A stretch of 64,000 bases of DNA from contig NZ_CP058986.1 of assembly GCF_019278525.1 (NCBI RefSeq), forward strand, positions 3,859,001 to 3,923,000, written 5' to 3'. The notes under the pieces were generated by a model. That model saw only the letters and a program-made list of their open reading frames with translations, was not told the origin of the DNA and made no database searches. Positions 15,666-34,089 of this stretch are shown piece by piece; within the stretch, counting starts at the first letter, position 1; each line of letters starts with the position of its first letter. The position numbers and the translations under genes were made by a program. Source of the DNA: Polaribacter sp. HaHaR_3_91 (GTDB lineage Bacteria > Bacteroidota > Bacteroidia > Flavobacteriales > Flavobacteriaceae).

Positions 15666-16622
15666 ATGGAATTAACAGTAATGTATTTAGGGTTTTTCTT
15701 AGCAGCTTATTCTGTTGTAGGAAATGACACCATACAAACATTAGGAACCTTTTTAAGTTCTAACGAACGTAAAAAATGGTGGGTTCTATGGCTTTTTGCT
15801 GGTGGTATACTTGCTGTAACATTAATCTACGGTTACGTTACTCATAATGGGGATGTTTCTTACGGAAGGTTGGCAAAATATCCTTTACCACAACCATTTG
15901 CTTGGTACTACATTCTACCTCCTATTGTTTTAATGCTGTTAACACGTACTGGAATACCGGTAAGTACCTCTTTTTTAATTCTTACATTTTTTAATGCAAA
16001 GAATTTAGAAGATATGGTTACAAAATCTGTTTCTGGTTATTTACTTGCGCTAACAGCATCTATTGTTTTATACCTAATTATCTCTAAATCGGTTGAAAAG
16101 AAATTTATTGAAAACCCAATTACAGAAAAACAAAGAAATATTTGGACAGCCTTACAATGGTTATCTACAGGTTTTTTATGGTCGCAATGGCTAATTCAAG
16201 ACTTTGCTAATATTTATGTGTACTTACCAAGACAATTAAGTGTTTGGGAGTTAATAGGTTCTTTAGTTATTATTTTAGGTCTTTTGGCTTACATTATAAA
16301 ATCTAAAGGAGGTGCAATACAAAGCATCATTCGCTCTAAAACAAATACAGTAGATATAAGATCTGCTACATTAATAGACTTTACGTATGGTATTGTTTTA
16401 TTCTACTTTAAAGAACTAAACAATGTACCAATGAGCACAACTTGGGTGTTTATAGGAATTTTAGCAGGTAGAGAAATTGCCTTAAACTTTGTATTGCGTA
16501 AAAACGAAGCTCGTAGAGATATGTTTAAAAGTTTAGGAGTAGATTTATTTAAGGTATTAATAGGCCTTATAGTAAGTATTGCACTTGTGTATGGTGTAAA
16601 ATTTATAGCAACTTCAATTTAA
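15666..16622 (+). CDS. PiT/PHO4-related permease
   Basis: The protein has 318 residues with about eight membrane helices. Two separated segments look like the inverted repeat signature of PiT phosphate transporters: VVGNDTIQTLGTFLSSN near the start (compare GxND) and NNVPMSTTWVFIGILAGRE near the end. It is shorter and more divergent than classical PitA, so the substrate is uncertain; phosphate or another oxyanion is likely. A beta-barrel porin gene starts 22 bases after the stop and a universal stress protein follows, suggesting one operon. Confidence 0.7.
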   Translation: MELTVMYLGFFLAAYSVVGNDTIQTLGTFLSSNERKKWWVLWLFAGGILAVTLIYGYVTHNGDVSYGRLAKYPLPQPFAWYYILPPIVLMLLTRTGIPVSTSFLILTFFNAKNLEDMVTKSVSGYLLALTASIVLYLIISKSVEKKFIENPITEKQRNIWTALQWLSTGFLWSQWLIQDFANIYVYLPRQLSVWELIGSLVIILGLLAYIIKSKGGAIQSIIRSKTNTVDIRSATLIDFTYGIVLFYFKELNNVPMSTTWVFIGILAGREIALNFVLRKNEARRDMFKSLGVDLFKVLIGLIVSIALVYGVKFIATSI

Positions 16623-16644
16623 CAATCATTCTAAATTAAAACCA

Positions 16645-17796
16645 ATGTATTTTAAATTTAAAACTTGCATTATATTAGTTTGTCTACTTTCTTTTACGAA
16701 TTTAACAATGGCACAAAGCCAAAAAAACGGAATAGATACCGATGAAAAAGGAATCACTATTGCAGATTTTCTTCAAATGTCTGGTAATTGGTTTATCGCT
16801 TATAGAGATGGTATTTCTCAAACACAGGCAGATGACGAAATAGGTATTACAAACGATCATCAGAGTGCTTTTGTTTTAAAAAGGAGTTATTTCACCTTAA
16901 AAAAAGACCTAAACAAAACCTATTCGGTACGTTATACGATGGATTTAACTGTTGATAGAGATGGACCCGATGCCGGAAATATAGAAACGCGTTTAAAATA
17001 TTTATATGTAAAAGCAAAACCAAATTTTAATAGTGATGTTTTTACAGGAAACTGGGTAGAAGTTGGTATGGTACATACACCTTGGTTAGATTTTGAACAA
17101 AAAATAAATACCTACAGAGTACAAGACAATATGTTTATTGAAAGAAATAGAATTTTTAATTCTGCTGATTTCGGTATCACCTACGGAGGAAATATTGGTC
17201 CTGCAATGGATAAGGAGTTTCTAAAAGAAGTAAACGGTGCTATGCCTGGTAAATACGTAAGTTATGTAGTAGGTTTGTTTAATGGTGGAGGATATTCAGG
17301 TGAAGAGAATAACAATAATAAAGTGTTTTCGGGACGTTTAACTGTTAGACCGTTTGCCAATAAATTACCAGAATTACATATAAGTGGTTATTTTAATGTT
17401 GGAAGAGGAAATAGTGAGTACAATCCTCAATTTAATCAGGTATTAGGGTTTATTGCCTATACAGGAAAACAATTAACTTTAACAGGACAAATGCACAGCG
17501 GTATAGGTGATTTTAGAGGAGAATATGTAGATGAAAACGATTTTAGTAAAGCAATTGAAAATGATGGATATAGTTTTTTTGGAGAATATAAAATTAAAAA
17601 ATCACCTTTAGCTCTTTGGGCAAGATATGACTCCTTTCATTTAGAAACTTTAGACGATGCGAATACAAAACGTTTTATTGGAGGGCTTTCTTATACTGTA
17701 AACAAATATCTAAGATTGGTACTAAATGCAGAACATAACAACAAAACATCAAACGAAAATAATATTTACGAATTAAATCTCGAAGTATCTTTCTAA
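16645..17796 (+). CDS. Outer-membrane porin, OprP/phosphate-selective-like
   Basis: The protein has 383 residues with a signal peptide (about 1-23, cleaved after MAQ). The mature part is made of alternating strands with the usual porin features: KRSYFTLKK, WVEVGMVHTPWLDFEQ, KSPLALWARYD, and a C-terminal Phe (NLEVSF). The pattern resembles OprO/OprP-type porins in Bacteroidota. Its place between the PiT-like permease and a stress protein suggests that it lets the same solute, perhaps phosphate, through the outer membrane. Confidence 0.8.
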   Translation: MYFKFKTCIILVCLLSFTNLTMAQSQKNGIDTDEKGITIADFLQMSGNWFIAYRDGISQTQADDEIGITNDHQSAFVLKRSYFTLKKDLNKTYSVRYTMDLTVDRDGPDAGNIETRLKYLYVKAKPNFNSDVFTGNWVEVGMVHTPWLDFEQKINTYRVQDNMFIERNRIFNSADFGITYGGNIGPAMDKEFLKEVNGAMPGKYVSYVVGLFNGGGYSGEENNNNKVFSGRLTVRPFANKLPELHISGYFNVGRGNSEYNPQFNQVLGFIAYTGKQLTLTGQMHSGIGDFRGEYVDENDFSKAIENDGYSFFGEYKIKKSPLALWARYDSFHLETLDDANTKRFIGGLSYTVNKYLRLVLNAEHNNKTSNENNIYELNLEVSF

Positions 17797-17807
17797 AAAT
17801 AAAAATT

Positions 17808-18650
17808 ATGAAAAACATATTATTTCCAACAGACTTTTCAGAAATTTCTTTAAATGCCTTTGCGTATGCAATGGAATACGCACAAAAGCTAGATGCTACC
17901 TTAATTATATATCATGCCTATCATGAAGACATATCGGTAGATGAAAAAACACAATCTATTTACGAAAAAATTGACATTGATAATTTTAGAAATAAAAAAG
18001 ATAAATTTCCGCCTTTTCAAAAGCTGATAAAAGCAAGTAAAAAAGGAGACTTAAAAGTAAAATACATTGTTGATGAAGGTGTTTTTTCCGATTCTCTATT
18101 TAAATATGTTGCCAAACGTGATGACAAAATTGACATCATTATAATGGGAACTAGCAAAGGAAAAAATAGCAGCCTTTTTAATATTTTTATGGAAACCAAT
18201 ACCATTAAAATTTTAGAAGAAATAGACAAACCTGTAATCGCAGTTCCAGAAAACGCAAAATTTGATGGTTCTCTAGACAATATTATGTTCTTGGTAGATT
18301 ATAGAGATGAAGAAATTGAACCTTTAGAGAAAATAACCAAAGTTGTTAAAGAGTTTAGTGCTCAATTACACGTTGTACATTTCGATTTAGCTCATGGTGA
18401 ATCTATTTCTCCATTAATGGATAACTTTAGACAGAACTTAACTTTAAAACATAAAAAAACCAAATTTGTGTCTATTGATACTTTACATTTAAAAACATCT
18501 TTAACAGATTATTGTACCGAAAATAAAATAGACATGGTTTGCTTATTAAATCAAGAACGCAACTTATACCAACGTTTATTTACCTTTAGTTTAGCAGAAG
18601 ATTTAATCAATCATATTGATATCCCTGTAATGGCTATTTATAAAAAGTAA
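17808..18650 (+). CDS. Universal stress protein, tandem-domain
   Basis: The protein has 280 residues and two UspA-like halves (about 1-145 and 150-280). The first starts with the typical NILFPTDFSE and ends with an IIMGTSKG loop near the ATP-binding region. The second lacks a clear G-x2-G-x9-G motif. It is cytoplasmic. It starts 11 bases after the porin stop codon and is followed by a terminator, so it closes the permease-porin-Usp unit. Confidence 0.92.
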   Translation: MKNILFPTDFSEISLNAFAYAMEYAQKLDATLIIYHAYHEDISVDEKTQSIYEKIDIDNFRNKKDKFPPFQKLIKASKKGDLKVKYIVDEGVFSDSLFKYVAKRDDKIDIIIMGTSKGKNSSLFNIFMETNTIKILEEIDKPVIAVPENAKFDGSLDNIMFLVDYRDEEIEPLEKITKVVKEFSAQLHVVHFDLAHGESISPLMDNFRQNLTLKHKKTKFVSIDTLHLKTSLTDYCTENKIDMVCLLNQERNLYQRLFTFSLAEDLINHIDIPVMAIYKK

Positions 18651-18722: not shown

Positions 18723-19382
18723 ATGGATAAAGACAACATCATACTAAATACTATAAAATTTGTAAAAGAAACCTTAAAAGATGCCGAAGGCGGACATGAT
18801 TGGTTTCACATAGAACGTGTCTATAAAAATGCAGTTTTAATTTCTAAGGATGAACATGTAAATGCTTTTATAGTTTCTTTAGGTGCGCTATTGCATGATA
18901 TTGCAGATCCTAAATTTTATGATGGAGACGAATCTGTTGGTCCTAAAATAGCAACAAAATTTTTAGAAGAACAAAACGTTTCTAAAGACATAATAGGGCA
19001 TGTTATAAATATAATAAAACACATATCTTTTAAAAACTCTTTAGAAACTAGTGGTAAAAAATTTACTTCTAAAGAATTAGAAGTTGTGCAAGATGCAGAC
19101 AGATTAGATGCTATTGGAGCCATTGGTATTGCGCGTTGTTTTAATTATGGTGGATTTAAAAACAGGGCTTTGTATAACCCAGAAATTCCACCAAATCTAA
19201 ATATGACTAAAGAAGAGTATAAAAACTCTTCCGCTCCAACAATCAATCATTTCTACGAAAAATTATTGCTATTAAAAAATAAAATGAATACTGTTACTGG
19301 ACAGCAAATTGCTGCAGAAAGACATTCTTTTATGGAATTATTTCTGAAGCAATTTGATGATGAATGGAATGGAGTGAAGTAA
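18723..19382 (+). CDS. HD-domain phosphohydrolase
   Basis: The protein has 219 residues. The metal-binding HD superfamily residues are visible: GGHDWFHIERV (His25, His29), LLHDIAD (His58-Asp59) and VQDADRLDAIGAIGIAR. The arrangement is that of the YedJ/YfbR-like uncharacterised phosphohydrolases. The substrate is unknown, with nucleotides or phosphate esters likely. It is single, converges with the AraC gene, and its promoter box sits directly before the ATG. Confidence 0.9.
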   Translation: MDKDNIILNTIKFVKETLKDAEGGHDWFHIERVYKNAVLISKDEHVNAFIVSLGALLHDIADPKFYDGDESVGPKIATKFLEEQNVSKDIIGHVINIIKHISFKNSLETSGKKFTSKELEVVQDADRLDAIGAIGIARCFNYGGFKNRALYNPEIPPNLNMTKEEYKNSSAPTINHFYEKLLLLKNKMNTVTGQQIAAERHSFMELFLKQFDDEWNGVK

Positions 19383-19392
19383 TTAGAAAAGC

Positions 19393-20265
19393 TTAATTCT
19401 GAATTAAACTCATCATTTCACTTCTATATTTTGAAGCAGATTTACCTGTAAACTCTTTAAACAATTTATTAAAGTGAGAAAAGTTATTAAAACCACATTC
19501 AAAACAAATATCTGTAATACTCGTTTGGCTTTCAGATAATAATTTAGTTGCATGTACAACTCTATATTCATTTACCAATTTAGTAAACGTTCTACCTGTT
19601 GTTTTCTTAAAAAACCTACAAAACGCAGGAACCGTCATACTTACAAGATCAGAAATTTCATCTAAACTAATATGTTGGTTAAAGTTTTCGTTTATATGTT
19701 TAAAGATTACATCTATTTTACTACTGTCTTGTGGTTGCGTCTCAAAAGCATAACCATCTGCATTCAATAAAGTATAATCATCTGATTTAGAAAGTGTATG
19801 CAAAATTTCTAACAAAATCAACACTTGTTTAAAACCTTCTTTTTCAGATAATTTTTCAATTTTTGGACCTAATTTTTGTTTTGTTTTTACACCAAAAAGA
19901 ATTCCTTTTTTGGCTTTTTCAAATAAAATACTAATAGGTTTCATTTCAGGAACTTCAAAAAACTCATTTCCTAAAAAGTCTGGTTTAAATTGTACCAAGG
20001 TTTCAGAACCATTGGTTGTTAGTCTATCTGTAAAACCATTATGTGGCAAATTAGATCCTATTAATAATAACTGACTATTATTAAAGTAAGACAAATGATT
20101 ACCAATATGTCTTTTACCCTTTCCCTTATTCACATAAACTAATTCGATTTCTGGGTGAAAATGCCAGAATGCTTTTATTTGCTTCAAAAACTCTGTATGT
20201 TTTTTTACAAGTATTGAGCTTCCAAAATCGGGACTAATTTTCTCTAAAGTAGGTTTAACGTTCAT
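19393..20265 (-). CDS. AraC-family transcriptional regulator
   Basis: The protein has 290 residues. The N-terminal part (about 20-130) is cupin-like (FWHFHPEIELVYVNKGKGKR), a likely ligand-sensing domain. The C-terminal ~100 residues hold two helix-turn-helix motifs (ISLDEISDLVSMTVPAFCRF and TSITDICFECGFNNFSHFNK). It is transcribed away from the five-copy secreted protein array, whose first promoter is about 170 bases from its start. Control of that array is possible but only by position. Confidence 0.93.
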   Translation of the reverse strand: MNVKPTLEKISPDFGSSILVKKHTEFLKQIKAFWHFHPEIELVYVNKGKGKRHIGNHLSYFNNSQLLLIGSNLPHNGFTDRLTTNGSETLVQFKPDFLGNEFFEVPEMKPISILFEKAKKGILFGVKTKQKLGPKIEKLSEKEGFKQVLILLEILHTLSKSDDYTLLNADGYAFETQPQDSSKIDVIFKHINENFNQHISLDEISDLVSMTVPAFCRFFKKTTGRTFTKLVNEYRVVHATKLLSESQTSITDICFECGFNNFSHFNKLFKEFTGKSASKYRSEMMSLIQN

Positions 20266-20284
20266 AAATAGTACTATTTAACGG

Positions 20285-20292
20285 CAAATTTA
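20285..20292 (-). promoter_or_regulatory. -7 box of the AraC gene
   Basis: TAAATTTG on the minus strand fits TAnnTTTG exactly, 19 bases before the ATG. Confidence 0.5.
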
Positions 20293-20433
20293 CGACACTT
20301 AACACTAAAAAGCTGTATAAAATTAACAAAATTATAGACTAAATTATCTTTACTTTCTTTTAACATAAAAATAACAGTTAATCTAGTACATAAACCCACC
20401 AATTTAGATGTTTTCTAAACAGAATTGCTGCCA

Positions 20434-20441
20434 TAAATTTG
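20434..20441 (+). promoter_or_regulatory. -7 box, array unit 1
   Basis: TAAATTTG is followed by cagtgttattaatcat, the same leader as in units 2 and 3. A TTTTC stands about 19 bases upstream at the -33 position. Confidence 0.6.
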
Positions 20442-20473
20442 CAGTGTTATTAATCATATAAATGACAAATAAA

Positions 20474-21040
20474 ATGAAGAAAATTATATTAGTTGCTTTA
20501 ATGTTCGGAACATTAATTAGTTATGCAAACGAAAACATCAATACTGAAGACGCAAAGAAAACTGTAAAGGTTGAATTTAATAATGTAAAAAAAGGTCAGA
20601 CTTTAACCATTAAAAATAGTAACGGTTTAACTGTTTACAATAATGAAATTCAAAATTCTGGAGACTATTCTAAAACATTTGATTTTTCTGCTTTAGAAAA
20701 TGGAATTTACTCTGCTGAGTTAAATAAAGACTTCGAAATTGTTATTAAACAATTTAATGTTGAAAATGGATTGGTAACATTTTTAAACAATAAAGATCAA
20801 AAAATATTTAAACCAATCATTAGAACTGAAGGTGAATTATTATTAATATCAAAAATTAATTTTAACAATGAACCTTTAAAAGTTTCTCTTTACTATAATG
20901 ATGAAGCTGTACTTTCTGAAACCTTATCTGGGGACAAAATTTTAAAAAGAGTTTACAAATTGTCTCAAAAAGAAACTGGTGTTTATAAAGTAGTTATTAG
21001 TTCTGATGAAAGAACTTATTCAAAAGAATTTAAAATATAA
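20474..21040 (+). CDS. Secreted array protein 1
   Basis: The protein has 188 residues from the second in-frame ATG. An ATG at 20462 is also in frame, but units 4 and 5 have ATA at the matching position, so I prefer 20474. The signal peptide is MKKIILVALMFGTLISYA. The mature part seems to hold two related beta-sandwich-like segments (about 25-95 and 98-188), each with a pattern of strand, NxxG, polar turn, and GxYxxE/V (LENGIYSAEL; KETGVYKVVI). I do not know the family; it recalls DUF3244 or T9SS-tail-like Ig folds. There is no Cys in the mature protein. The function is unknown. Confidence 0.85.
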   Translation: MKKIILVALMFGTLISYANENINTEDAKKTVKVEFNNVKKGQTLTIKNSNGLTVYNNEIQNSGDYSKTFDFSALENGIYSAELNKDFEIVIKQFNVENGLVTFLNNKDQKIFKPIIRTEGELLLISKINFNNEPLKVSLYYNDEAVLSETLSGDKILKRVYKLSQKETGVYKVVISSDERTYSKEFKI

Positions 21041-21086
21041 AAATTTAGTTAATTGTTTCGTCAAATTACTGCTATAGTTTGATGGT

Positions 21087-21116
21087 AAAAGCGAGTCCAA
21101 AAGGACTCGCTTTTTA
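21087..21116 (+). terminator. Terminator, array unit 1
   Basis: The 12-bp stem aaaagcgagtcc / ggactcgctttt has an aaaa loop and a T-run. Confidence 0.88.
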
Positions 21117-21267
21117 TGTTTATAAAACATCTAGACAAAACCTTTATTGCATAAATTAACATAAACCTACACTATATTAACATGTGTAAATCTACCAAAC
21201 AAACACACTTGTTAATATAACATATAAAAACACCAATTATGATGTTTTCTAAACAAAACTTCTATCA

Positions 21268-21275
21268 TAAATTTG
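21268..21275 (+). promoter_or_regulatory. -7 box, array unit 2
   Basis: TAAATTTG sits in a block (gatgttttctaaac ... cagtgttattaatcat) nearly identical to unit 1. Confidence 0.6.
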
Positions 21276-21307
21276 CAGTGTTATTAATCATATAAATGAT
21301 ATATAAA

Positions 21308-21886
21308 ATGAAAATAAAGAAAATTATATTAGTTGCTTTAATGTTCGGAACATTAATAACTAACGCAAACGAAAAAGACAATACCAATTATAAAGAAGCA
21401 AAAAAAACTGTTAAGGTTGAATTTAATAATGTAAAAAAAGGTCAGACTTTAACTATTAAAAATAGTAACGGTTTAACTGTTTATAATAATGAAATTCAAA
21501 ATTCTGGAGACTATTCTAAAACTTTTGATTTTTCTGCTTTAGAAAACGGAATTTACTCTGCTGAATTAAATAAAGACTTCGAAATTGTTATTAAACAATT
21601 TTATGTTGAAAATGGATTGGTTACTTTTTTAAATAATAAAGATGAAAAAATATTTAAACCAATCATTAGAACTGAAGGTGAATTATTATTAATATCAAAA
21701 ATTAATTTTAACAATGAACCTTTAAAAGTTACTCTTTACTATAATGATGAAGCTGTACTTTCTGAATCCATATCTGGAGACAAACTTTTAAAAAGAGTTT
21801 ACAAATTATCTGAAAAGGAAGTTGGTGCTTATAAAGTAGTTATTAATTCTGATCAAAGAACTTATACAAAAGAATTTAAAATATAA
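21308..21886 (+). CDS. Secreted array protein 2
   Basis: The protein has 192 residues from the ATG aligned with units 4 and 5; an upstream ATG at 21296 is less likely. Signal peptide MKIKKIILVALMFGTLITNA. It is nearly the same protein as unit 1 between the signal peptide and residue ~165, with changes such as YVENG for NVENG and SISGDKLL for TLSGDKIL. A small linker after the signal peptide (EKDNTNYKEA) differs from unit 1. It has its own promoter and terminator and is not part of an operon. Confidence 0.85.
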   Translation: MKIKKIILVALMFGTLITNANEKDNTNYKEAKKTVKVEFNNVKKGQTLTIKNSNGLTVYNNEIQNSGDYSKTFDFSALENGIYSAELNKDFEIVIKQFYVENGLVTFLNNKDEKIFKPIIRTEGELLLISKINFNNEPLKVTLYYNDEAVLSESISGDKLLKRVYKLSEKEVGAYKVVINSDQRTYTKEFKI

Positions 21887-21932
21887 AAATTTAGTTAATT
21901 GTTTCGTCAAATTACTGCTATAGTTTGATGGT

Positions 21933-21962
21933 AAAAGCGAGTCCAAAAGGACTCGCTTTTTA
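21933..21962 (+). terminator. Terminator, array unit 2
   Basis: The stem and loop are the same as in unit 1 (aaaagcgagtcc / ggactcgctttt). Confidence 0.88.
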
Positions 21963-22115
21963 TGTTTATAAACATATAGACTAAAAATCTTTATTGTATA
22001 AAATTAACACAAACATATTCAATATTAACATACCTAAATTCAATACAGAAATACGATTGTTAATATAACACACAAAAACACCAATTACGATGTTTTATAG
22101 ACAAAACTTCTGTCA

Positions 22116-22123
22116 TAAATTTG
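22116..22123 (+). promoter_or_regulatory. -7 box, array unit 3
   Basis: TAAATTTG is in the same leader context as units 1 and 2. Confidence 0.6.
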
Positions 22124-22155
22124 CAGTGTTATTAATCATATAAATGATATATAAA

Positions 22156-22734
22156 ATGAAAATAAAGAAAATTATATTAGTTGCTTTAATGTTCGGAACA
22201 TTAATAACTAACGCAAACGAAAAAGACAATAGCAATTATAAAGAAGCAAAGAAAACTGTTAAGGTTGAATTTAATAATGTAAAAAAAGGTCAGACTTTAA
22301 CTATTAAAAATAGTAACGGTTTAACTGTTTACAATAATGAAATTCAAAATTCTGGAGACTATTCTAAAACATTTGATTTTTCTGCTTTAGAAAATGGAAT
22401 TTACTCTGCTGAGTTAAATAAAGACTTCGAAATTGTTATTAAACAATTTAATCTTGAAAATGGATTGGTTACATTTTTAAATAATAAAGATGAAAAAATA
22501 TTTAAACCAATCATTAGAACTGAAGGTGAATTATTATTAATATCAAAAATTAATTTTAACAATGAACCTTTAAAAGTTACTCTTTATTATAATAATGAAG
22601 CTGTACTATCTGAAACCATATCTGGAGACAAACTTTTACAAAGAGTTTACAAATTATCTGAAAAGGAAGTTGGTGCTTATAAAGTAGTTGTTAGTTCTGA
22701 TGAAAGAACTTATACAAAAGATTTTACAATATAA
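22156..22734 (+). CDS. Secreted array protein 3
   Basis: The protein has 192 residues from the preferred second ATG (an alternative lies at 22144). It is the closest match to unit 2 at the N-terminus (EKDNSNYKEA) and to unit 1 in the middle, a mosaic that suggests gene conversion between copies. Its C-terminus reads TYTKDFTI, like units 4 and 5 rather than KEFKI of units 1 and 2. Signal peptide, two Ig-like segments and lack of Cys are as in the other copies. Confidence 0.85.
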   Translation: MKIKKIILVALMFGTLITNANEKDNSNYKEAKKTVKVEFNNVKKGQTLTIKNSNGLTVYNNEIQNSGDYSKTFDFSALENGIYSAELNKDFEIVIKQFNLENGLVTFLNNKDEKIFKPIIRTEGELLLISKINFNNEPLKVTLYYNNEAVLSETISGDKLLQRVYKLSEKEVGAYKVVVSSDERTYTKDFTI

Positions 22735-22780
22735 AAATTTAGTTAATTGTTTCGTCAAATTACTGCTATAATTTGATGGT

Positions 22781-22810
22781 AAAAGCGAGTCCAATAGGAC
22801 TCGCTTTTTA
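22781..22810 (+). terminator. Terminator, array unit 3
   Basis: The stem aaaagcgagtcc / ggactcgctttt has an aata loop and a T-run. Confidence 0.88.
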
Positions 22811-22951
22811 TTTGAAATACTTTTTTACAGAAAATAAAATTAACATAAATATACTCTATATTAACTTAACGATTAATTAACATCAATCAAACATGATAAA
22901 ATAACACATAAATACAGCAATTATGATGTTTTTAAAACTCAACTACCATTG

Positions 22952-22959
22952 TACATTTG
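22952..22959 (+). promoter_or_regulatory. -7 box, array unit 4
   Basis: TACATTTG fits the consensus. The leader (agcgttactaacctttaaat) differs from units 1-3 but matches unit 5. Confidence 0.55.
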
Positions 22960-22989
22960 TAGCGTTACTAACCTTTAAATAAGAAGATA

Positions 22990-23574
22990 ATGAAAACAAT
23001 AATTAAAACAATTTTAGTAGTAACATTAATGTTTGGAACATTAATTAGTTATGCAAACGACAACACGAAATCTACTAATTCAGTAGCCGTTAAAAAAGTT
23101 AAAGTAGAATTTAAAGATGTAAAAAAAGGGAATGCTTTAACTATTAAAAATGAATACGGAATAACGATATATAAACAAGTACTACAAAGTTCTGGAAACT
23201 TTACTAAGAATTTCGATTTAACAAATTTAGAAGATGGTTTATATACTACCGAACTAGAAAAAGACTTCGAAATTATTATTAAGAAACTTGAAATTAAAGA
23301 TGGTTTTGTAACTTTCTATAAAAAAGAAAAGGAAGTAATTTTTAAACCAGTAATTAGAACAGAAGGAAATTTAATTTTGATTTCTAAAATTGAATTTGAC
23401 AACCAACCTTTAAATGTAACTTTATACTACAATAATGACATTATTTTTTCTGATAAAGTAGAAGGAGAAAAAATCTTAAATAGAGTTTATAAATTATCTG
23501 AAACGGAAGAAGGAGCATACAAAGTTGTTATTAACTCAGACGACAGAACTTACATTAAAGATTTTACATTATAA
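22990..23574 (+). CDS. Secreted array protein 4
   Basis: The protein has 194 residues with signal peptide MKTIIKTILVVTLMFGTLIS. It shares the family pattern (KPVIRTEGNLILISKIEFDN; YYNNDIIFSDKV) but is clearly diverged from units 1-3, with an acidic/lysine-rich surface (KKEKEVIFKP). An A/G-rich aagaaga lies just before the ATG, unlike units 1-3. No Cys is present in the mature protein. It forms a subfamily with unit 5. Confidence 0.87.
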   Translation: MKTIIKTILVVTLMFGTLISYANDNTKSTNSVAVKKVKVEFKDVKKGNALTIKNEYGITIYKQVLQSSGNFTKNFDLTNLEDGLYTTELEKDFEIIIKKLEIKDGFVTFYKKEKEVIFKPVIRTEGNLILISKIEFDNQPLNVTLYYNNDIIFSDKVEGEKILNRVYKLSETEEGAYKVVINSDDRTYIKDFTL

Positions 23575-23620
23575 AAATTTAGTTAATTGTTTCGTTAAAT
23601 TACTGCTATAATTTGATGAT

Positions 23621-23650
23621 AAAAGCGAGTCCAAAAGGGCTCGCTTTTTA
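23621..23650 (+). terminator. Terminator, array unit 4
   Basis: The stem aaaagcgagtcc / gggctcgctttt has one G-T wobble position and a T-run. Confidence 0.85.
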
Positions 23651-23792
23651 TTTTAAAACACTTTTTTATAGAAAATAAAATTAACACAAATATATTCTAT
23701 TTTAACCTTACAATTTATTAACACTAACTTAAACTGATAAAATAACATACAAATATACCAATTATGATGTTTTAGGAGCTTAACTTCCATCT

Positions 23793-23800
23793 TACCTTTG
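23793..23800 (+). promoter_or_regulatory. -7 box, array unit 5
   Basis: TACCTTTG fits TAnnTTTG. The leader matches unit 4. Confidence 0.55.
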
Positions 23801-23830
23801 CAGTGTTACTAACCTTTAAATAAGAAAAAA

Positions 23831-24415
23831 ATGAAAACAGTAATTAAAACAATTTTAGTAGTAACATTAATGTTTGGAACATTAATTAGTTACGCAAACG
23901 ACAACACAAAACCTACAAATTCAGTAGCTGTTGAAAGAGTTAAAGTTGAGTACAAAGCCGTAAAGAAAGGCGATGCTTTAACAATAAAAAATGAATATGG
24001 AATAACAATATATAAACAGGTATTACAAAGTTCTGGAAACTATACTAAAACTTTCGATTTAACGAATTTAGAAGATGGCTTATACACAACAGAACTAGAA
24101 AAAGACTTCGAAATTCTTGTTAAGAAGCTTGAGGTAAAAGATGGTTTTGTTACTTTTCATAAAAATGAAAATGAAATAATCTTTAAACCAGTAATTAGAA
24201 CAGAAGGAAATTTAGTTTTAATTTCTAAAATTGAATTTGATAACATTCCTTTAAATGTAACTTTATATTACAACAATAAAATTATCCTTTCTGATAAAGT
24301 GACTGGAGAAAAAGTATTAAATAGAGTTTACAAATTGTCTGAAACTGAAAAAGGAGCTTATAAGGTGATTATTAATTGTAATAACAGAACATACAAAAAA
24401 GATTTTACAATATAA
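23831..24415 (+). CDS. Secreted array protein 5
   Basis: The protein has 194 residues and is the closest relative of unit 4, with the same signal peptide type (MKTVIKTILVVTLMFGTLIS). It differs at scattered surface positions (VERVKVEYKAVKKGDALTI; HKNENEIIFKP) and has a single Cys near the C-terminus (INCNNRTYKKDFTI), where the other copies have Ser-Asp. As the last copy it carries the most altered 3' region and terminator. Function unknown. Confidence 0.87.
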   Translation: MKTVIKTILVVTLMFGTLISYANDNTKPTNSVAVERVKVEYKAVKKGDALTIKNEYGITIYKQVLQSSGNYTKTFDLTNLEDGLYTTELEKDFEILVKKLEVKDGFVTFHKNENEIIFKPVIRTEGNLVLISKIEFDNIPLNVTLYYNNKIILSDKVTGEKVLNRVYKLSETEKGAYKVIINCNNRTYKKDFTI

Positions 24416-24460
24416 GAGTAATTAATTTTATCATCAATCTACTGCCATACTTTGATGCTT

Positions 24461-24490
24461 AAAGCGAGTCTAATTTAGACTCGCTTTTTT
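24461..24490 (+). terminator. Terminator, array unit 5
   Basis: The stem aaagcgagtcta / tagactcgcttt keeps the core of the other units, with compensating changes on both sides (tcta/taga), followed by six T. Confidence 0.88.
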
Positions 24491-24651
24491 TATAATAAAT
24501 AGATATAAAAAATAAAACCTCAACAACATCCGTAATTCTATTTATAAAACATGAACTTTTTTTTTACCAATAAAAGAAAGTACAAAAAGAAAAAAATAAT
24601 TTAAAAATCGATACATTTTAATTGAAATATCCATTATTTTGGTAAAAATTT

Positions 24652-24659
24652 TATTTTTG
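24652..24659 (+). promoter_or_regulatory. -7 box upstream of the ECF sigma gene
   Basis: TATTTTTG fits the consensus, 48 bases before the ATG. No clear -33 element is seen. Confidence 0.4.
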
Positions 24660-24707
24660 TTCTCTTATTACCTATTTCAACGAAATTGGTTAATTTAGGT
24701 ATTCCCC

Positions 24708-25316
24708 ATGAAAGATTATAGTAAACTCGAAATACGGCATTTTAAAAATTTTCAACTTGGTAACGAGAAGGCCTTTGAGTATTTTTTTAATAAACACCAT
24801 AGTCATATTTTAGGGTTTTGCATACAATTCATTTATGACAAATCACAATCTTCAAGCATTACACAAGAAGCTTTTCTAAACCTATGGCTTAATAGAGCTA
24901 AAATTGAAAAAATAAACGGTATTGAATCTTTTTTGTACACCTTTGCTAAATCTAAATGCCTTAATACAATTAGACACAACAAAGTAAAAGAACGTTTTAA
25001 AAGTAAAACTTTAAACGATAAAGAACGTGCATTAGATCTTGATGTATTAAATGCTATTAATTTTGACAGCCTAACCTTAATGGAGTTAGAAAATTTGATT
25101 TCTGATTCTATAAAAGATTTACCAGAGAAGACAAGAGTTATTTTCTTAAAAAAAAGATTTGAAAGCAAAAAAAATCAGGAGATTGCTGATGAATTAAATA
25201 TTACCCTAAAAACAGTAGAAGCGCATATGACCAAAGCTTTAAAAATTTTAAGAGTAAAACTATCTGATTACCTACCACTTATACTAGTTAGCATCATCCT
25301 TGCTAACCAACAATAG
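24708..25316 (+). CDS. ECF RNA polymerase sigma factor, FecI-like
   Basis: The protein has 202 residues. Region 2 (about 14-85: FFNKHHSHILGFCIQFIYDK, ITQEAFLNLW) and region 4 (about 130-185: LPEKTRVIFLKKRF, NQEIADELNITLKTVEAHMT) are both clear. Such sigma factors in Bacteroidota are controlled by a membrane FecR anti-sigma protein and a TonB-dependent transducer, both encoded next. The end LPLILVSIILANQQ is hydrophobic, which is common in this subgroup. The fecR gene follows after 187 bases and has its own possible promoter. Confidence 0.94.
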   Translation: MKDYSKLEIRHFKNFQLGNEKAFEYFFNKHHSHILGFCIQFIYDKSQSSSITQEAFLNLWLNRAKIEKINGIESFLYTFAKSKCLNTIRHNKVKERFKSKTLNDKERALDLDVLNAINFDSLTLMELENLISDSIKDLPEKTRVIFLKKRFESKKNQEIADELNITLKTVEAHMTKALKILRVKLSDYLPLILVSIILANQQ

Positions 25317-25370
25317 CCACTATTCTTTAAAACATTTTAGTAATTCATAGTTCTAATTACAAAAACAGAA

Positions 25371-25378
25371 TACTTTTG
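25371..25378 (+). promoter_or_regulatory. -7 box upstream of fecR
   Basis: TACTTTTG fits the consensus. It would give a leader of about 120 bases before the FecR start at 25504. Confidence 0.4.
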
Positions 25379-25503
25379 TCTTTATTTTTAATTAATCTAA
25401 ATAACTATAATATTATATCATAGGGTTATCTAAAACTGAAGTGTACTAACTTATATGCAACAAAAAGAAAGAAACACCAACATTAAATCAACATTACTTT
25501 AAA

Positions 25504-26616
25504 ATGATTTCGAATTTAATAACAAAATATTTAAATAACGAAGCTTCCGAAAAAGAAGTTGAATTGATTTTTAAATGGATTGAAGCATCAAATGCTAACA
25601 AAAAAGAATTTATTGCCTTAAAAAAAACATGGGTATTAACTTCTGTATCAGCAAACACAGAGAAAAAAGATTGGCAAGAAGTCCAAAAGAAAATAAGAAG
25701 CACAAAAACATTTACATATAAAAAATGGCTTAAATATGCTGCCGCAATAATAATTTTTATAAGCATTGGAAAATATTACTATCACACAAGCAGTGTTAAC
25801 AACAACCTAATAGAAGAAAATAGTATTGTTTTACAAACTGAAGACAAAGATAATAGCATTAAAATAAAATATGATCATGAGAATATTATAAATTCTTCTG
25901 GCCAAGTTATCGCTGAACATAATAAAGACGAAATCATTTATAAAAAAACTTCTACTACAAGTCCTACACTTTATCATACCCTAAATATCCCTTTAGGAAA
26001 AACTTTTAAAGTAAAACTTTCAGACGGAACAACAGTACACTTAAACTCTGGTACTACGTTTAAATACCCTAAACAATTTAGTACAGCTGGTAACAGACTT
26101 GTTTATTTAGAAGGTGAAGCATTTTTTGAAGTTGAAAAAGACGCTACTAGACCTTTTATAGTAAACATAGCCGATGTTGATGTGAAAGTTTTAGGTACCA
26201 AGTTTAATATAAGTGCTTATTCTAATACTACAAATTATAGTTGTGTTTTAGTAGAGGGTTCTGTAGATGTGTCTAATGAAAATTACAACTCTTTATTAAT
26301 TCCTAATCAAAAAGCTAGCTGGAATAACGAAAATATACCATTTAAAATCGAAGAGGTAAATACAGATCTTTATACTTCATGGGTTTATGGAGAATATATT
26401 TTAGATGCTTCACATTTCAGCGAAATATCTAAAAAACTTGAGCGTGCATTTAATGTAAGAATCATTAATAATAACAAGCTATTAGAATCTCAAGAATTTA
26501 GCGGAACCATCAACTTTAAAACTTCAACAATAGAAAACATTTTAGACTTACTAAAATTCGATACCTATTTTGAGTACACTATTAAAGACAACCAAATAAT
26601 AATTAGTAGCAATTAA
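25504..26616 (+). CDS. FecR-family anti-sigma factor
   Basis: The protein has 370 residues. A short cytoplasmic part (about 1-70) should bind the sigma factor. One membrane helix follows (about 77-92, YAAAIIIFISIG). The periplasmic FecR domain (about 155-270) has LPLGKTF-like and DGTTVHLNSGTTFKYP motifs, and a C-terminal DUF4974-like segment (about 300-370) is present. The periplasmic part is expected to touch the STN domain of the SusC-like protein encoded one base downstream. That tight spacing suggests a single operon. Confidence 0.94.
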   Translation: MISNLITKYLNNEASEKEVELIFKWIEASNANKKEFIALKKTWVLTSVSANTEKKDWQEVQKKIRSTKTFTYKKWLKYAAAIIIFISIGKYYYHTSSVNNNLIEENSIVLQTEDKDNSIKIKYDHENIINSSGQVIAEHNKDEIIYKKTSTTSPTLYHTLNIPLGKTFKVKLSDGTTVHLNSGTTFKYPKQFSTAGNRLVYLEGEAFFEVEKDATRPFIVNIADVDVKVLGTKFNISAYSNTTNYSCVLVEGSVDVSNENYNSLLIPNQKASWNNENIPFKIEEVNTDLYTSWVYGEYILDASHFSEISKKLERAFNVRIINNNKLLESQEFSGTINFKTSTIENILDLLKFDTYFEYTIKDNQIIISSN

Positions 26617-26617
26617 T

Positions 26618-29600
26618 ATGAAGCATATTTTTACTCCCCATATAAAAAAACTAATTCTCTCCTTAGGAATTATATTATTTTATCAAAATGCCTTTGCGCA
26701 AACAAAACCAATTTCTATCAACATAAAAGAACAACCACTAAGTACTGTTCTAAAAACAATCGAAGATCAAACATCTTATCGCGTTATTTATAATATCGCT
26801 AAAATAGACACGAATCAAAAAGTTAGTTTGGTAGCAATCAACAACAGCTTAGAAGAAGTTTTATCAAAATTATTAAAAGATACAACGCTGACATATGTAA
26901 TTAAAAATAAGCAGATTTTACTTATTGAAAAACAAGCTGCTAAACCTCAAAAAACAACAAGAATCATAAAAGGAATTGTGTATACAGCAGAAGACAATTT
27001 ACCACTTCCAGGAGCTAGCATTTTAATTAAAGATTCTAGAATTGGAGCAATCACAAATATGGATGGTCAATTCACTTATTTATTAAAGGGAAATGATATT
27101 GCAAACATTGTCTTAGAAGTTTCTTACTTAGGTATGAAAACAAAAACCGTTGTAGTAGCAGACCAATCTCAATTTACTTTTTATTTAGAAGAATCTAGAA
27201 ATACTTTAGAGGAGGTTGTCATTACATCTTCTTATGGAACAAAAAAACTAAGAGAGGAAGTTGTTGGAAGTATAGAAACCTTAAATTCTAAAGACATTGC
27301 TATAGAACAGGCCTCTGAAAGTATTGATAAAATGGTAGACGGACAAATAGCGGGTGTTTATATAGAAAACACATCTGGTATTGGCGGCCCAGTAAGTATT
27401 AACATTCGAGGTCAAGGTAGTTTAACCCCTCTAAATGGTGCTATATACGGTACTTCTACACAACCACTTATTATTATTGATGGTGTTATTATGGCCGAAG
27501 AAATGGCGATAGATAATGACTTTTTTGACGCTAACGGAAGTTCTTCCGAAGATTTATCGAACCCTTTATCTCAAATTTCTCCAGAAAACATAGAAAGTTT
27601 TACTGTCTTAAAAGATGCCGCTGCAGTTAGTATTTATGGAGCTGATGCGGCCAATGGTGTTATTTTAATTACTACCAAGCAAGGGAAAAAAGGACCTGCA
27701 AAATTTGGTTTCTCATCACAATTAGGAGTTTCCTCTGCAATTAATCAAATTAAATACTTAAGTGGATCTCAATACAACGAACTGCGAAATGAGTATTTAA
27801 AAAACACAACAGTAGGCTACACTCCTATAGCTTATAATGGTGTAGATACCGATTGGTTTAATTTATTAAATGGTACAGGAATTTATAATAAATACAATTT
27901 TAGTGTTTCTGGAGCTTCAGAATCCTTTTCATACCGCACAAGTTTATCTTTTAAAAAAATAGATGAGCCTCAAAAAGGAAACACCAACAAACAACTAAAT
28001 GCGAATATAAATTTAGGATATAAACATAAGAAATTCGACCTAAATTTAACACTAAGTCCAAGCTTCGTATCAAAAAACGCTCCAAACATATATTACAGCT
28101 ATGCTTTTGCACCAAACTTATCTCCTTATAACGAAGACGGTTCTTATGCCAATGTTGGGATTACTGGCTTAGGAAATCCATTAGCAGCCATTGACCAAAA
28201 CAAAAACATTTCAAACACTTATAGTATTTTAGGAAGTCTACAAGCTTCCTATCATATAACAGAAGACTTAAATATTTCCTCTTTATTTGGTCTTTCATAT
28301 AGTGATAAAGAACAAGACCGCTATTTCTCGGGAGAAAATGAAAGTGGTCAAGTTAATGGTAGTTTTACACTAAATGGTACGTCGTATCCAATCTATGGCC
28401 GTCGTTTAATAAATAATAGGCACACCAATAAGTGGAACTGGCAAACACGCGCACTTTACAATAAACAAATAGACGAAAACAATGCTTTCGACGGTATCTT
28501 TGGTATTGAACTTACAAAAGAAAATGTAGACTTTAATTATGCTTCCGGACGAGGATTTGTAAACCCAAACATTATAAACGAGGTTACCGATGCCCTTCAG
28601 GATGACGCCCCATCCACAACCGAGAATGAATCTACAGGAAATCAAACTTACAGCTCGGATATTAGCAACAACTCTAAAGTTTCACTCTTTTCGCAACTTA
28701 ATTACAATTACAAAAAACGCTATTTTATTCTAGCAAATTTTAGACGTGACCAAAGTTCTGTTTTCGGAGACGACACCAATGTGGCCTACACAGGAGGCGC
28801 TGGGGTAAGCTGGATTTTATCTAACGAGAATTTTTTAGAAGCTAATAATTGGATTGATTTATTAAAACTTAAACTAAGTTACGGAACTACAGGAAACTCT
28901 AGAATAGGATCTTATCGCTCTAAAGGCTTATACACCATTAATGATAATGGTTATAATAACTTAGATATCGCCTACCCATCGGCTGCTCCTAACGGTGAAT
29001 TGAGTTGGGAAAAGAATAAAAAATTTAATGCGGGTTTAAACTTCAACTTTTTAAACACGGTGAGTTTAACGCTTGAATATTATTACGACGATATTCAAGA
29101 TCTTATTACAAGTAGAAGTATACCTTCTGAAACCGGATATAACTCTATACAAATTAATGCTGCAAGCATGTACAACAAAGGCCTAGAGCTATCAACAAAT
29201 TTTAAATGGTTTCAAAAAGAAAATTTTAAATGGACTACCTCGTTTAACATCTCTACATTACAAAGTGAAGTTACAGAACTGAAAGGATTGGGTAATGAAT
29301 TTTCAGTTTCAGAAATTGCCTTAGCACAAAAAGTAGGCTACAGCACTTCTACTATTTGGGGTATTAAATGGGCAGGTATCGATCCTGCTACAGGGCGTGA
29401 CTTACTTAAAAAAGATGGCGAAATTTACGACGCCATAACTTACAACAGTTTGTTTACCAGTGCCGATTGGGTTCCAATAGGTGATTATCAACCCGATGCC
29501 TACGGAGGGTTCAATAACACGTTTACCTTCAACAATAATATAAGCTTATCCATTCGAGGAAGCTTTCAAATAGGCGGTGATTATTTAGCAGAAGATGAAC

Positions 29601-29962
29601 TTATTGCCAAATACAATATTACTTCAAACAGAAATCTATCTGTAAATGCGTACGATTATTGGAGAACTCCAGGAGATGTTGCTCTTAACCCAATTGTAAC
29701 CAGCAATAACCCAACCATTTCTAACTACGATAAATACTTGTACGACGCTACGTCTTTAAGAATAAGTAACGTGAATTTAAACTATAGCTTTCCTAAAAAT
29801 AGTCTAAGTTTTTTAGATGGCTTATCTGTATATACAGATGTTTCTAATGTCCTTTACTGGTACAAAGAAAAAAGTTTAAATGGCAGAAATGGTATTAATG
29901 AATTTAGATTTACCTACCCACAAGCGAGAACAATTTCAATAGGAGTAAATGCAAAATTTTAA
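26618..29962 (+). CDS. SusC/RagA TonB-dependent transporter with STN signalling domain
   Basis: The protein has 1114 residues. After the signal peptide (about 1-27) comes an STN domain (about 32-104, ISINIKEQPLSTVLKTIED) that can signal to FecR. It is followed by a carboxypeptidase-regulatory-like Ig domain (about 115-195), the plug (about 200-330, VDGQIAGVYIEN and SINIRGQGS), and a beta barrel ending in the aromatic tail ARTISIGVNAKF. With SusD it forms a lidded outer-membrane importer driven by TonB. The substrate is not readable. The neighbours include a di-haem peroxidase and no glycoside hydrolase, which argues against a simple polysaccharide locus. Confidence 0.96.
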   Translation: MKHIFTPHIKKLILSLGIILFYQNAFAQTKPISINIKEQPLSTVLKTIEDQTSYRVIYNIAKIDTNQKVSLVAINNSLEEVLSKLLKDTTLTYVIKNKQILLIEKQAAKPQKTTRIIKGIVYTAEDNLPLPGASILIKDSRIGAITNMDGQFTYLLKGNDIANIVLEVSYLGMKTKTVVVADQSQFTFYLEESRNTLEEVVITSSYGTKKLREEVVGSIETLNSKDIAIEQASESIDKMVDGQIAGVYIENTSGIGGPVSINIRGQGSLTPLNGAIYGTSTQPLIIIDGVIMAEEMAIDNDFFDANGSSSEDLSNPLSQISPENIESFTVLKDAAAVSIYGADAANGVILITTKQGKKGPAKFGFSSQLGVSSAINQIKYLSGSQYNELRNEYLKNTTVGYTPIAYNGVDTDWFNLLNGTGIYNKYNFSVSGASESFSYRTSLSFKKIDEPQKGNTNKQLNANINLGYKHKKFDLNLTLSPSFVSKNAPNIYYSYAFAPNLSPYNEDGSYANVGITGLGNPLAAIDQNKNISNTYSILGSLQASYHITEDLNISSLFGLSYSDKEQDRYFSGENESGQVNGSFTLNGTSYPIYGRRLINNRHTNKWNWQTRALYNKQIDENNAFDGIFGIELTKENVDFNYASGRGFVNPNIINEVTDALQDDAPSTTENESTGNQTYSSDISNNSKVSLFSQLNYNYKKRYFILANFRRDQSSVFGDDTNVAYTGGAGVSWILSNENFLEANNWIDLLKLKLSYGTTGNSRIGSYRSKGLYTINDNGYNNLDIAYPSAAPNGELSWEKNKKFNAGLNFNFLNTVSLTLEYYYDDIQDLITSRSIPSETGYNSIQINAASMYNKGLELSTNFKWFQKENFKWTTSFNISTLQSEVTELKGLGNEFSVSEIALAQKVGYSTSTIWGIKWAGIDPATGRDLLKKDGEIYDAITYNSLFTSADWVPIGDYQPDAYGGFNNTFTFNNNISLSIRGSFQIGGDYLAEDELIAKYNITSNRNLSVNAYDYWRTPGDVALNPIVTSNNPTISNYDKYLYDATSLRISNVNLNYSFPKNSLSFLDGLSVYTDVSNVLYWYKEKSLNGRNGINEFRFTYPQARTISIGVNAKF

Positions 29963-29966
29963 GGTG

Positions 29967-31448
29967 ATGATGACACAAAAAAAACAACTAAAACAACTTT
30001 CTAAATACTTCTTAACAGTGTTAATTGCAACCTTTTATAACTGCAGTGGTTTTTTAGAACAAGAACCAGGATCTCAAACTTCTATTACCGAATTATTAAA
30101 TACTACGGACGGTGTGGTAACCGCACTAAATGGTGCTTACGATAATTTAGAATCCAACGTGAGAGGCGAGCGCTATGCTACTTACGCCGATATGCAATCT
30201 GGCAATATCACCTTTACACCAACAGAAACCGGAAGTAATACTGGACAAATTACGGTGCCTTTTAATATAGAAAACGTTTACAACTTTACAGATTTAGCAG
30301 ATGACAGTAATTTAGACGGGTTTTATGATGACTGCTACGATATTATAAACCAAACAAACCTTATTCTAGAATATGTGGATGCACTAACAGATTCTAATGA
30401 TAATATAAAAAATCAAATAAGAGCCGAAGCCCTAACCATTAGAGCTTATGTTCACTTTATATTATCTCAAATATATGCGCAAAATTATGGTTTTACTGCA
30501 GATGCTAGTCATTTAGGCATTGTTTATAATAAAACCACTTTAACCAATGGCATCACCTACCCATCTAGAGAAACATTAGCAACAACCTATACTTTAATTA
30601 TTGCCGATTTAACTTCAGCAATAAACAACTACTCCAACACTTTACTTTTAGATGGACCAACATATTCTTATTTCAATAAAGTAAGTACTCAAGCTTTACT
30701 TGCTCGAGTTTACGTTTCTCAATACGATTGGCAAAATGCTTACGATTTGGCAAATGAAGTGATTTTCAATTCAGGAAAAACACTAACACCTTCGGATGAT
30801 TATATAACAGAATGGGAAAAACCAGATTTACCTATTTCTGAAGTATTATTAGAGTTTTCAATTCCGAGAGACAATGGTGGTACGGTAGGAGGCTCACTGT
30901 CGAGTTCCTATGGTTTTACCTCAACAGCAGATTATGGGGATTATGTAGCCTCGGAAGATTTATTAAACCTTTTTGAACCTAATGATTTACGTAGACAGCT
31001 ATTTCTTGAAGCTAATTTACCAACCTTAATTGGTGGTGAACTAGAAGACCGCCCATATTATTTTACTAAAAAATTTCAAGATAACCCAGGCTTTATAGCT
31101 ATCAGATTAAGTGAAATGTATTTAATAAGAGCCGAAGCCTCATTAGGACTTGAAAATCTAGAAGCTTGTAAAGACGACATTAATATATTACGAAGCAGAG
31201 CAAATGCCACGCTACTTACAGAGACGACAGATTTACAGGGTATTCTTCTACAAGAACGCCGAAAAGAAATGTGCTTTGAAACTCAATACTTATTCGACTT
31301 AGCAAGATTTCAACAAAATATAATACGAGGTGCAGACTGCGTATCGCAAACTTGTAACTTAAATTATCCTTCAGGAAAATATATACTTCCAATACCAAAT
31401 AGTAACATTGAACTTAACTCTAATTTACAGCAAAATGAAACATACTAA
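29967..31448 (+). CDS. SusD/RagB-family outer-membrane lipoprotein
   Basis: The protein has 493 residues from the ATG at 29967; an ATG at 29949 inside the susC end gives 499. The later start puts the lipobox Cys (IATFYNC) about 26 residues in, as expected. The typical SusD features are visible: SGFLEQEPGSQTSITE at the start, IRAEALTIRAYVHFILSQIYA (TPR region), and IRLSEMYLIRAEASLG with RRKEMCFE in the C-terminal half. It forms the lid over the SusC barrel and binds the ligand. It overlaps the following gene by 14 bases. Confidence 0.94.
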   Translation: MMTQKKQLKQLSKYFLTVLIATFYNCSGFLEQEPGSQTSITELLNTTDGVVTALNGAYDNLESNVRGERYATYADMQSGNITFTPTETGSNTGQITVPFNIENVYNFTDLADDSNLDGFYDDCYDIINQTNLILEYVDALTDSNDNIKNQIRAEALTIRAYVHFILSQIYAQNYGFTADASHLGIVYNKTTLTNGITYPSRETLATTYTLIIADLTSAINNYSNTLLLDGPTYSYFNKVSTQALLARVYVSQYDWQNAYDLANEVIFNSGKTLTPSDDYITEWEKPDLPISEVLLEFSIPRDNGGTVGGSLSSSYGFTSTADYGDYVASEDLLNLFEPNDLRRQLFLEANLPTLIGGELEDRPYYFTKKFQDNPGFIAIRLSEMYLIRAEASLGLENLEACKDDINILRSRANATLLTETTDLQGILLQERRKEMCFETQYLFDLARFQQNIIRGADCVSQTCNLNYPSGKYILPIPNSNIELNSNLQQNETY

Positions 31449-32910: not shown

Positions 32911-32915
32911 TAACC

Positions 32916-34061: not shown

Positions 34062-34089
34062 TATTAATCAATTTTAAACACTCACAATT

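Follow-up and report, generated by a model that had tools for sequence, protein, structure and literature searches.

A tandem gene array divergent from an AraC-family gene

The stretch of DNA analysed here, hereafter the window, comprises 64,000 nucleotides of the genome of Polaribacter sp. HaHaR_3_91 (contig NZ_CP058986.1, positions 3,859,001 to 3,923,000). It carries an array of five intact head-to-tail genes (20462-24415, plus strand), each encoding a small protein predicted to be exported, and, divergent from the first copy, a gene for an AraC-family transcriptional regulator (Table 1). On balance, we favour the view that a dedicated one-component AraC switch acts on the array as its amplified target, tandem copies raising the dose of an abundant exported protein. 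An earlier sequence-only reading of the locus had described five copies of a unit of about 840 bases, and neighbouring copies indeed start 834-848 bases apart. That reading was right about the array itself but did not note the AraC gene divergent from copy 1, the promoter module that each copy has to itself or how deeply the gene pair is conserved.

The five copies fall into two types, in agreement with the earlier division into copies 1-3 and a separate pair, copies 4 and 5. Protein identity within type A is 89% (copies 1 and 2), 88% (copies 1 and 3) and 94% (copies 2 and 3), and within type B 85% (copies 4 and 5), whereas the two types share 55-58% protein identity and approximately 70% coding DNA identity. 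The ratio of non-synonymous to synonymous substitution rates (dN/dS) lies at 0.14-0.51 across all ten copy pairs, which supports purifying selection on every copy, as had been suspected. These five genes are the family members found in the genome, a single contig of 4,208,346 bases in which no sixth member was found at E <= 10 or at E <= 1e-6. Because the five copies all differ from one another and lie within one contig, an assembly artefact is unlikely. The nearest named proteins, among the best 120 of 253 matches listed, are from Polaribacter.

Each unit carries its own control module, promoter and terminator-like hairpin

Upstream of each gene lies a module of approximately 120 bases that is conserved between species too. 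In copy 1, the module consists of distal TTA[AT]C repeats, a proximal TAA...CAAT..GATGTTTT element and a TAnnTTTG (-7) box, which closes the module; in 96 family units, the median distance from this box to the start codon is 30 bases. The sequence-only reading, in which conserved promoter boxes were separated by drifted spacers, was thus correct about the boxes and understated the conservation, which extends over the whole upstream module. The promoter pattern derived from the window copies, CAAWWNNGRTGTTTT-N18-22-TANNTTTG, has five sites in the 4.2 Mb genome, one per copy and none elsewhere, with 0 sites for the reversed pattern; since the pattern was derived from these very copies, the five matches are expected, and the absence elsewhere is the actual result. 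Across the genus, the pattern has 103 sites in 53 genomes, 95 of them before family genes and 8 elsewhere, and the reversed-pattern control, tallied from the table, has 16.

A position matrix was built from 37 sites and tested on 144 held-out units. The highest score among 308 random pieces (-17.8) is exceeded by 138 of these units, and the highest among 507 other upstream regions (-11.7) by 133. The TAnnTTTG box lies outside the matrix, so that its offset serves as an independent check of the module: it stands at the expected offset in 135/144 held-out units and in 0/144 in two neighbouring offset windows. In 53 of 95 units, two TTA[AT]C elements are spaced by exactly 21 bp (shuffled sequences: mean 0.15, maximum 2), approximately 21 bp being the spacing of AraC half-sites. 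In one genome (G179), the AraC gene lies about 267 kb from the array, yet all five units score above the matrix threshold; this array still stands beside ECH-like and kinase-like genes, identified from their sequences and by comparison with the usual gene order.

At the 3′ side, each copy is followed by a stem-loop and then T's. The 78 bases after the stop codon are 94-100% identical among copies 1-4, comparisons of type A with type B included, and those of copy 5 are 71-75% identical to the other copies. With a TAnnTTTG box before each gene, the promoter pattern once per copy and a terminator-like hairpin after each gene, the copies are probably separate transcription units, as read earlier, and an operon model is not favoured. 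Of 20 pairs predicted for the two hairpins together, 7 have a sequence in which both sides are changed with the pair kept, although the covariation energy term is approximately zero (alignment A4, 26 rows, of which L115:2012-2096 is coding sequence and scored broken at most pairs). The hairpin preceding the terminator (21059-21085, with equivalents in copies 2-5) has a conserved ACTGCYATA-like loop. A known RNA element was rejected, as Rfam over 19300-24800 gave one chance-level match (E 0.95), inside the copy 2 coding sequence.

Table 1. Positions of the regulator gene, control modules, gene copies and 3′ hairpins in the window (aa, amino acids)
Feature	Position	Strand	Remark
AraC-family transcriptional regulator	19393..20265	-	divergent from copy 1; proposed activator of the five copies
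Control module and promoter, copy 1	20320..20441	+	core 20400-20441 matches promoter pattern
Copy 1	20462..21040	+	type A, 192 aa, predicted exported protein
3′ hairpin, then terminator-like hairpin, copy 1	21059..21116	+	AAAGCGAGTC at 21088
Control module and promoter, copy 2	21153..21275	+	core 21234-21275 matches promoter pattern
Copy 2	21296..21886	+	type A, 196 aa
3′ hairpin and terminator-like hairpin, copy 2	21905..21962	+	AAAGCGAGTC at 21934; identical to that of copy 1
Control module and promoter, copy 3	22000..22123	+	core 22082-22123 matches promoter pattern
Copy 3	22144..22734	+	type A, 196 aa, C-terminus TKDFTI
3′ hairpin and terminator-like hairpin, copy 3	22753..22810	+	AAAGCGAGTC at 22782
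Control module and promoter, copy 4	22836..22959	+	core 22918-22959 matches promoter pattern
Copy 4	22990..23574	+	type B, 194 aa
3′ hairpin and terminator-like hairpin, copy 4	23593..23650	+	AAAGCGAGTC at 23622
Control module and promoter, copy 5	23677..23800	+	core 23759-23800 matches promoter pattern
Copy 5	23831..24415	+	type B, 194 aa
3′ hairpin and terminator-like hairpin, copy 5	24432..24490	+	AAAGCGAGTC at 24461; diverged from copies 1-4

The AraC-family gene and the protein family occur together

The regulator matches Pfam HTH_18 at 74 bits (cut-off 33.6) and HTH_AraC at 48.8 bits (cut-off 26.6), which places it in the AraC family. Among 166 genomes of the genus, scanned for the protein family at E <= 1e-6 and for the AraC ortholog at E <= 1e-80, the former is found in 81 and the latter in 85; 80 genomes have both, one has the family alone (G105), five have AraC alone (G052, G066, G072, G096 and G130) and 80 have neither (Fisher P = 5e-40, shared ancestry ignored). 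The two genes are divergent and at most 1.5 kb apart in 78 of the 80 both-positive genomes and on different contigs in the other two. As nearly half of the genus lacks both, the pair appears to have been lost or gained jointly. In line with this arrangement, the AraC gene is divergent from the first family gene and within 1.5 kb of it in 44 of 46 named loci, with a largest gap of 699 bases, and the remaining two loci (L017 and L039) begin at contig ends.

The pairing extends beyond the genus. A family-level scan of 397 genomes gave 159 with both genes, 5 with the family alone, 57 with AraC alone and 176 with neither. Eighteen AraC-only genomes were opened, namely 17 of the 57, picked among those with coordinates listed, and G066 from the genus scan; 15 of them carry a diverged one- or two-domain relative at the divergent place. 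The family gene is on the divergent side in 18 of 20 further both-positive loci, and a relative is present in 29 of 29 order-level loci, three of which come from another family and one of which (L158) counts only with a gene further upstream; the sets of loci overlap in part (L142 and L144, for example, are the places of L096 and L092). At class level, a match was found in 12 of 247 genomes, and eight loci were newly opened. Five of these (L168-L172), with 44-55% AraC identity, contain a member that the family profile recognises (best E from 2e-33 to 6e-19), that of L171 being broken by a frame break, whereas in L173-L175, with 36-38% AraC identity, no family member was found and other genes face the regulator. 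Among the opened loci, regulators at least 44% identical to the window AraC mostly face a family member, and other families of the class Bacteroidia have the pair as well. The presence of members at 44-55% AraC identity and their absence at 36-38% argue for an orthologous pair and not a general habit of AraC genes. In one further locus (L165), the family gene is split over two frames (2533-3129) and the AraC gene beside it is intact.

This layout resembles the AraC-araBAD type, in which an AraC-family regulator stands divergent from its target, and in 53 of 95 units direct repeats spaced by 21 bp upstream of the promoter add to the likeness. It differs in its proposed target, which here is an exported protein copied in tandem with its control region and there a catabolic operon.

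The product has two DUF3244-like domains

The array product begins with a signal peptide, read from the sequence, and continues with two mutually homologous domains. Aligned by hhalign, domain 1 matches domain 2 with a probability of 93.9 (E 1.6e-7), and a reversed control gives a probability of 0.4 (E 0.15). DUF3244 (PF11589) is the top Pfam match for all five copies, with 26.6, 24.0, 24.3, 20.4 and 21.4 bits for copies 1-5, and its gathering cut-off of 25 is passed by copy 1 only. In alignment A2, which holds 64 members including four window copies, DUF3244 matches 55 of 64 and PF18962 (Por_Secre_tail), a tail domain of the type IX secretion system (T9SS), matches 43 of 64 at E <= 0.01. Given these profile matches across the alignment, the product likely consists of two immunoglobulin-like (Ig-like) beta-sandwich domains; a profile search of PDB sequences gave a single match, at E 1.7. 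The family that the sequence-only reading did not recognise can therefore be described as having two domains like DUF3244 and T9SS tails, at scores near or below the curated cut-offs. Secreted DUF3244 proteins of Bacteroidota likewise combine a signal peptide with a short domain of unassigned function, but the array product has two domains, and only one copy in five passes the cut-off.

The similarity to T9SS tails raises the alternative that the product is a free-standing tail, acting as type IX cargo or a tail mimic, so that the array would adjust type IX traffic. All five copies match PF18962 weakly (best 24.6 bits, cut-off 27) and four of five match TIGR04183 (best 18.7 bits, cut-off 23), in addition to the PF18962 matches in alignment A2. 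However, no copy has a C-terminal T9SS type A sorting domain above either cut-off, the matches fall in either domain, and a functional cargo domain before the tail was not found, the protein having only a signal peptide and two tail-like domains. Moreover, no T9SS machinery gene was found among the annotated conserved neighbours. We regard this alternative as unlikely, although in Porphyromonas the expression of T9SS genes is influenced by PorA, a small protein that bears such a tail (PMC7712824). As described there, PorA of Porphyromonas gingivalis is a small exported protein with an Ig-like and a tail-like domain, and by that description resembles the array protein; its first domain resembles FimH, its homologs are reported in Porphyromonas only, and the consulted part of the report mentions neither an AraC partner nor an array (PMC7712824).

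Three further leads come from the literature. Fjoh_0547, a protein of 112 aa secreted without SprA (PMC7712824), whose neighbour Fjoh_0546 appears under a PhoBR operon (PMC8115612), is a possible relative by its description; another paper (PMC7807042) gave nothing further on it. DUF3244 genes of Bacteroides appear in an iron study (PMC10434189), and an AraC gene is listed in a biofilm transcriptome of Flavobacterium columnare (PMC6610971); no link of either to the array is established. A defence system was rejected, as copies 1 and 4 and the AraC protein have no PADLOC match at E <= 0.1, and so was a phage or plasmid origin, as the copy 4 query has no match in 72,556 plasmid and 50,697 phage records.

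Copy number, exchange between copies and expression

The number of copies per genus genome ranges from 1 to 6, counted as match rows, so that split matches inflate a few counts (G050, G105 and G122); the copy-number change expected from such an array is thus seen among relatives. In a tree built from the proteins of 54 copies in 15 arrays, type A forms a clade of 20 rows (support 98/97) and type B a clade of 22 rows (support 95/93), each spanning several species, and 12 rows from four further arrays fall outside both. The two types have therefore probably been kept apart since before the split of several related species.

Exchange between copies, the process suggested by the sequence-only reading, is supported by the shared 3′ ends and by the copy pairs of G086, in which copy 1 is almost identical to copy 3 and copies 2 and 4 encode the same protein, a pattern as would be expected from a duplicated two-gene block. 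Because the 3′ ends are shared among copies 1-4, A and B alike, unequal crossover or conversion at these ends would fit. The odd 3′ region of the last copy has a parallel in L115, L116, L118, L119, L120 and L042, whose last copy is similarly odd, and in L117, L122, L123 and L044 the last copy is not odd. As for the mixed traits of copy 3, earlier ascribed to gene conversion, its TKDFTI end is real but also occurs in two closely related assemblies (P0130 and P0055) and is thus a stable trait; conversion and retained ancestry both fit. The three A copies of G051, by contrast, end in SKEFNI.

The copies also show strong codon bias. Measured against a reference of 23 frames, not individually identified, from a 15-kb region around the ribosomal L2 gene, codon adaptation is 0.70-0.78 for the copies, on average 0.72 for the reference frames and 0.63 for other window genes. 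Copies 1-5 rank 2, 1, 2, 5 and 7, respectively, each against 53 other window genes. This bias suggests that the array is highly expressed, and lends indirect support to the earlier suggestion that the copies raise dosage.

Could the array instead be a passive by-product of recombination beside a conserved regulator, its extra copies bringing no advantage? A single match is found in 58 of the 81 family-bearing genus genomes, and the nearly identical 3′ ends are ready substrates for recombination. Yet all five copies are intact and have low dN/dS, each with a control module and codon bias, and the A and B types are retained in several relatives; we consider this explanation quite improbable. Least probable is that recombination maintains the copies as a diverse stock of antigenic or adhesive variants, as also raised earlier, or of phage-receptor variants. 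This would accord with two diverged types, 1-6 copies and exchange between copies but is rejected because dN/dS of 0.14-0.51 in ten of ten pairs indicates no excess amino-acid change and because the promoter pattern on each copy leaves neither silent cassettes nor a single expression site, the hallmarks of known antigenic-variation systems.

A proposed AraC switch acting on an amplified target

In the proposed AraC switch, the AraC-family protein would bind the module of approximately 120 bp before each copy and activate each promoter separately, as suggested by a conserved TGTTTT at the position expected for a -33 box. Each transcript would comprise one gene and end at its own terminator. The product would be exported via its Sec signal peptide as a small protein with two Ig-like beta-sandwich domains, and may act as an abundant structural or binding protein of the envelope or the extracellular space. 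Every unit being complete with promoter, gene and terminator, whole regulated doses would be added or removed when units recombine, and the regulation would stay the same.

Several observations weigh against this proposal. The prevalence of single matches in the genus indicates that a high dosage is not generally needed. A strict promoter match is absent in 30 of the 80 genus genomes carrying both genes; a TTA[AT]C spacing of 16 is also frequent (37/95 units), and a direct repeat sought in the proximal element gave no 21-bp repeat. In two genomes (L102 and L112), dispersed copies of the family that are closely similar have no control module and, for that reason, are possibly under other control. 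The co-occurrence P-values overstate independence, since the genomes share ancestry, and the genus- and family-level scans scored a limited number of candidates per genome. Finally, the regulator is not tied to the array protein alone: in three of the 18 opened AraC-only genomes the divergent gene does not belong to the family but encodes a membrane peptide of 41 (L077) or 33 (L081) residues or is an unrelated frame of 81 aa (L078), the module before the divergent gene being recognisable by eye in all three, and in L178 and L179, the other two of the 20 further both-positive loci, the family gene is not on the divergent side.

In L027, L049, L077 and L081, the same promoter module is immediately followed by a membrane peptide of 33-41 residues, which stands alone there in the latter two. 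Such peptides are a possible second kind of target. A broader and more tentative proposal, to which we give less than even weight, is that the AraC gene, the promoter module private to it and the exported protein of two domains represent one ancient, undescribed envelope-response system of the class Bacteroidia, whose targets are two-domain proteins, one-domain proteins or membrane peptides of 33-41 residues and whose output is tuned by copying units (up to six in the genus). Its parts are of known kinds, namely AraC regulators, DUF3244-like proteins and tandem arrays; no description of the family combined with the AraC gene was found in the literature searched, mostly outside subscription journals.

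For an uncharacterised gene family, the proposed AraC switch supplies a candidate regulator and predicts where it would bind, alongside a record of the family's evolution. Retention of the regulator next to a single small exported protein in several families of the class points to a basic role in the envelope for this protein, one that annotation as a "hypothetical protein" or a "T9SS tail" hides. In addition, the natural series of 1 to 6 copies in relatives offers a way to ask what regulated gene dosage brings a marine bacterium.

Neighbouring genes

Between the array and the ECH gene, the window holds a cassette (24708-35535) of genes for an extracytoplasmic function (ECF) sigma factor, FecR, a SusC-like protein, SusD, a di-haem peroxidase and a T9SS-tail protein. 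The ECF/FecR/SusC/SusD cassette was rejected as a partner of the array because the ECH gene follows the last unit within 200 bp in 29 of 46 named loci; for the same reason, the cassette is probably a lineage-specific insertion. On the other side, three genes (15666-18650) lie between a disulphide-isomerase-like gene and an HD gene. Two of them have no Pfam match and no counterpart in the fetched loci (E <= 1e-10), and the third, for a universal stress protein, has matches of only 21%, found in two loci.

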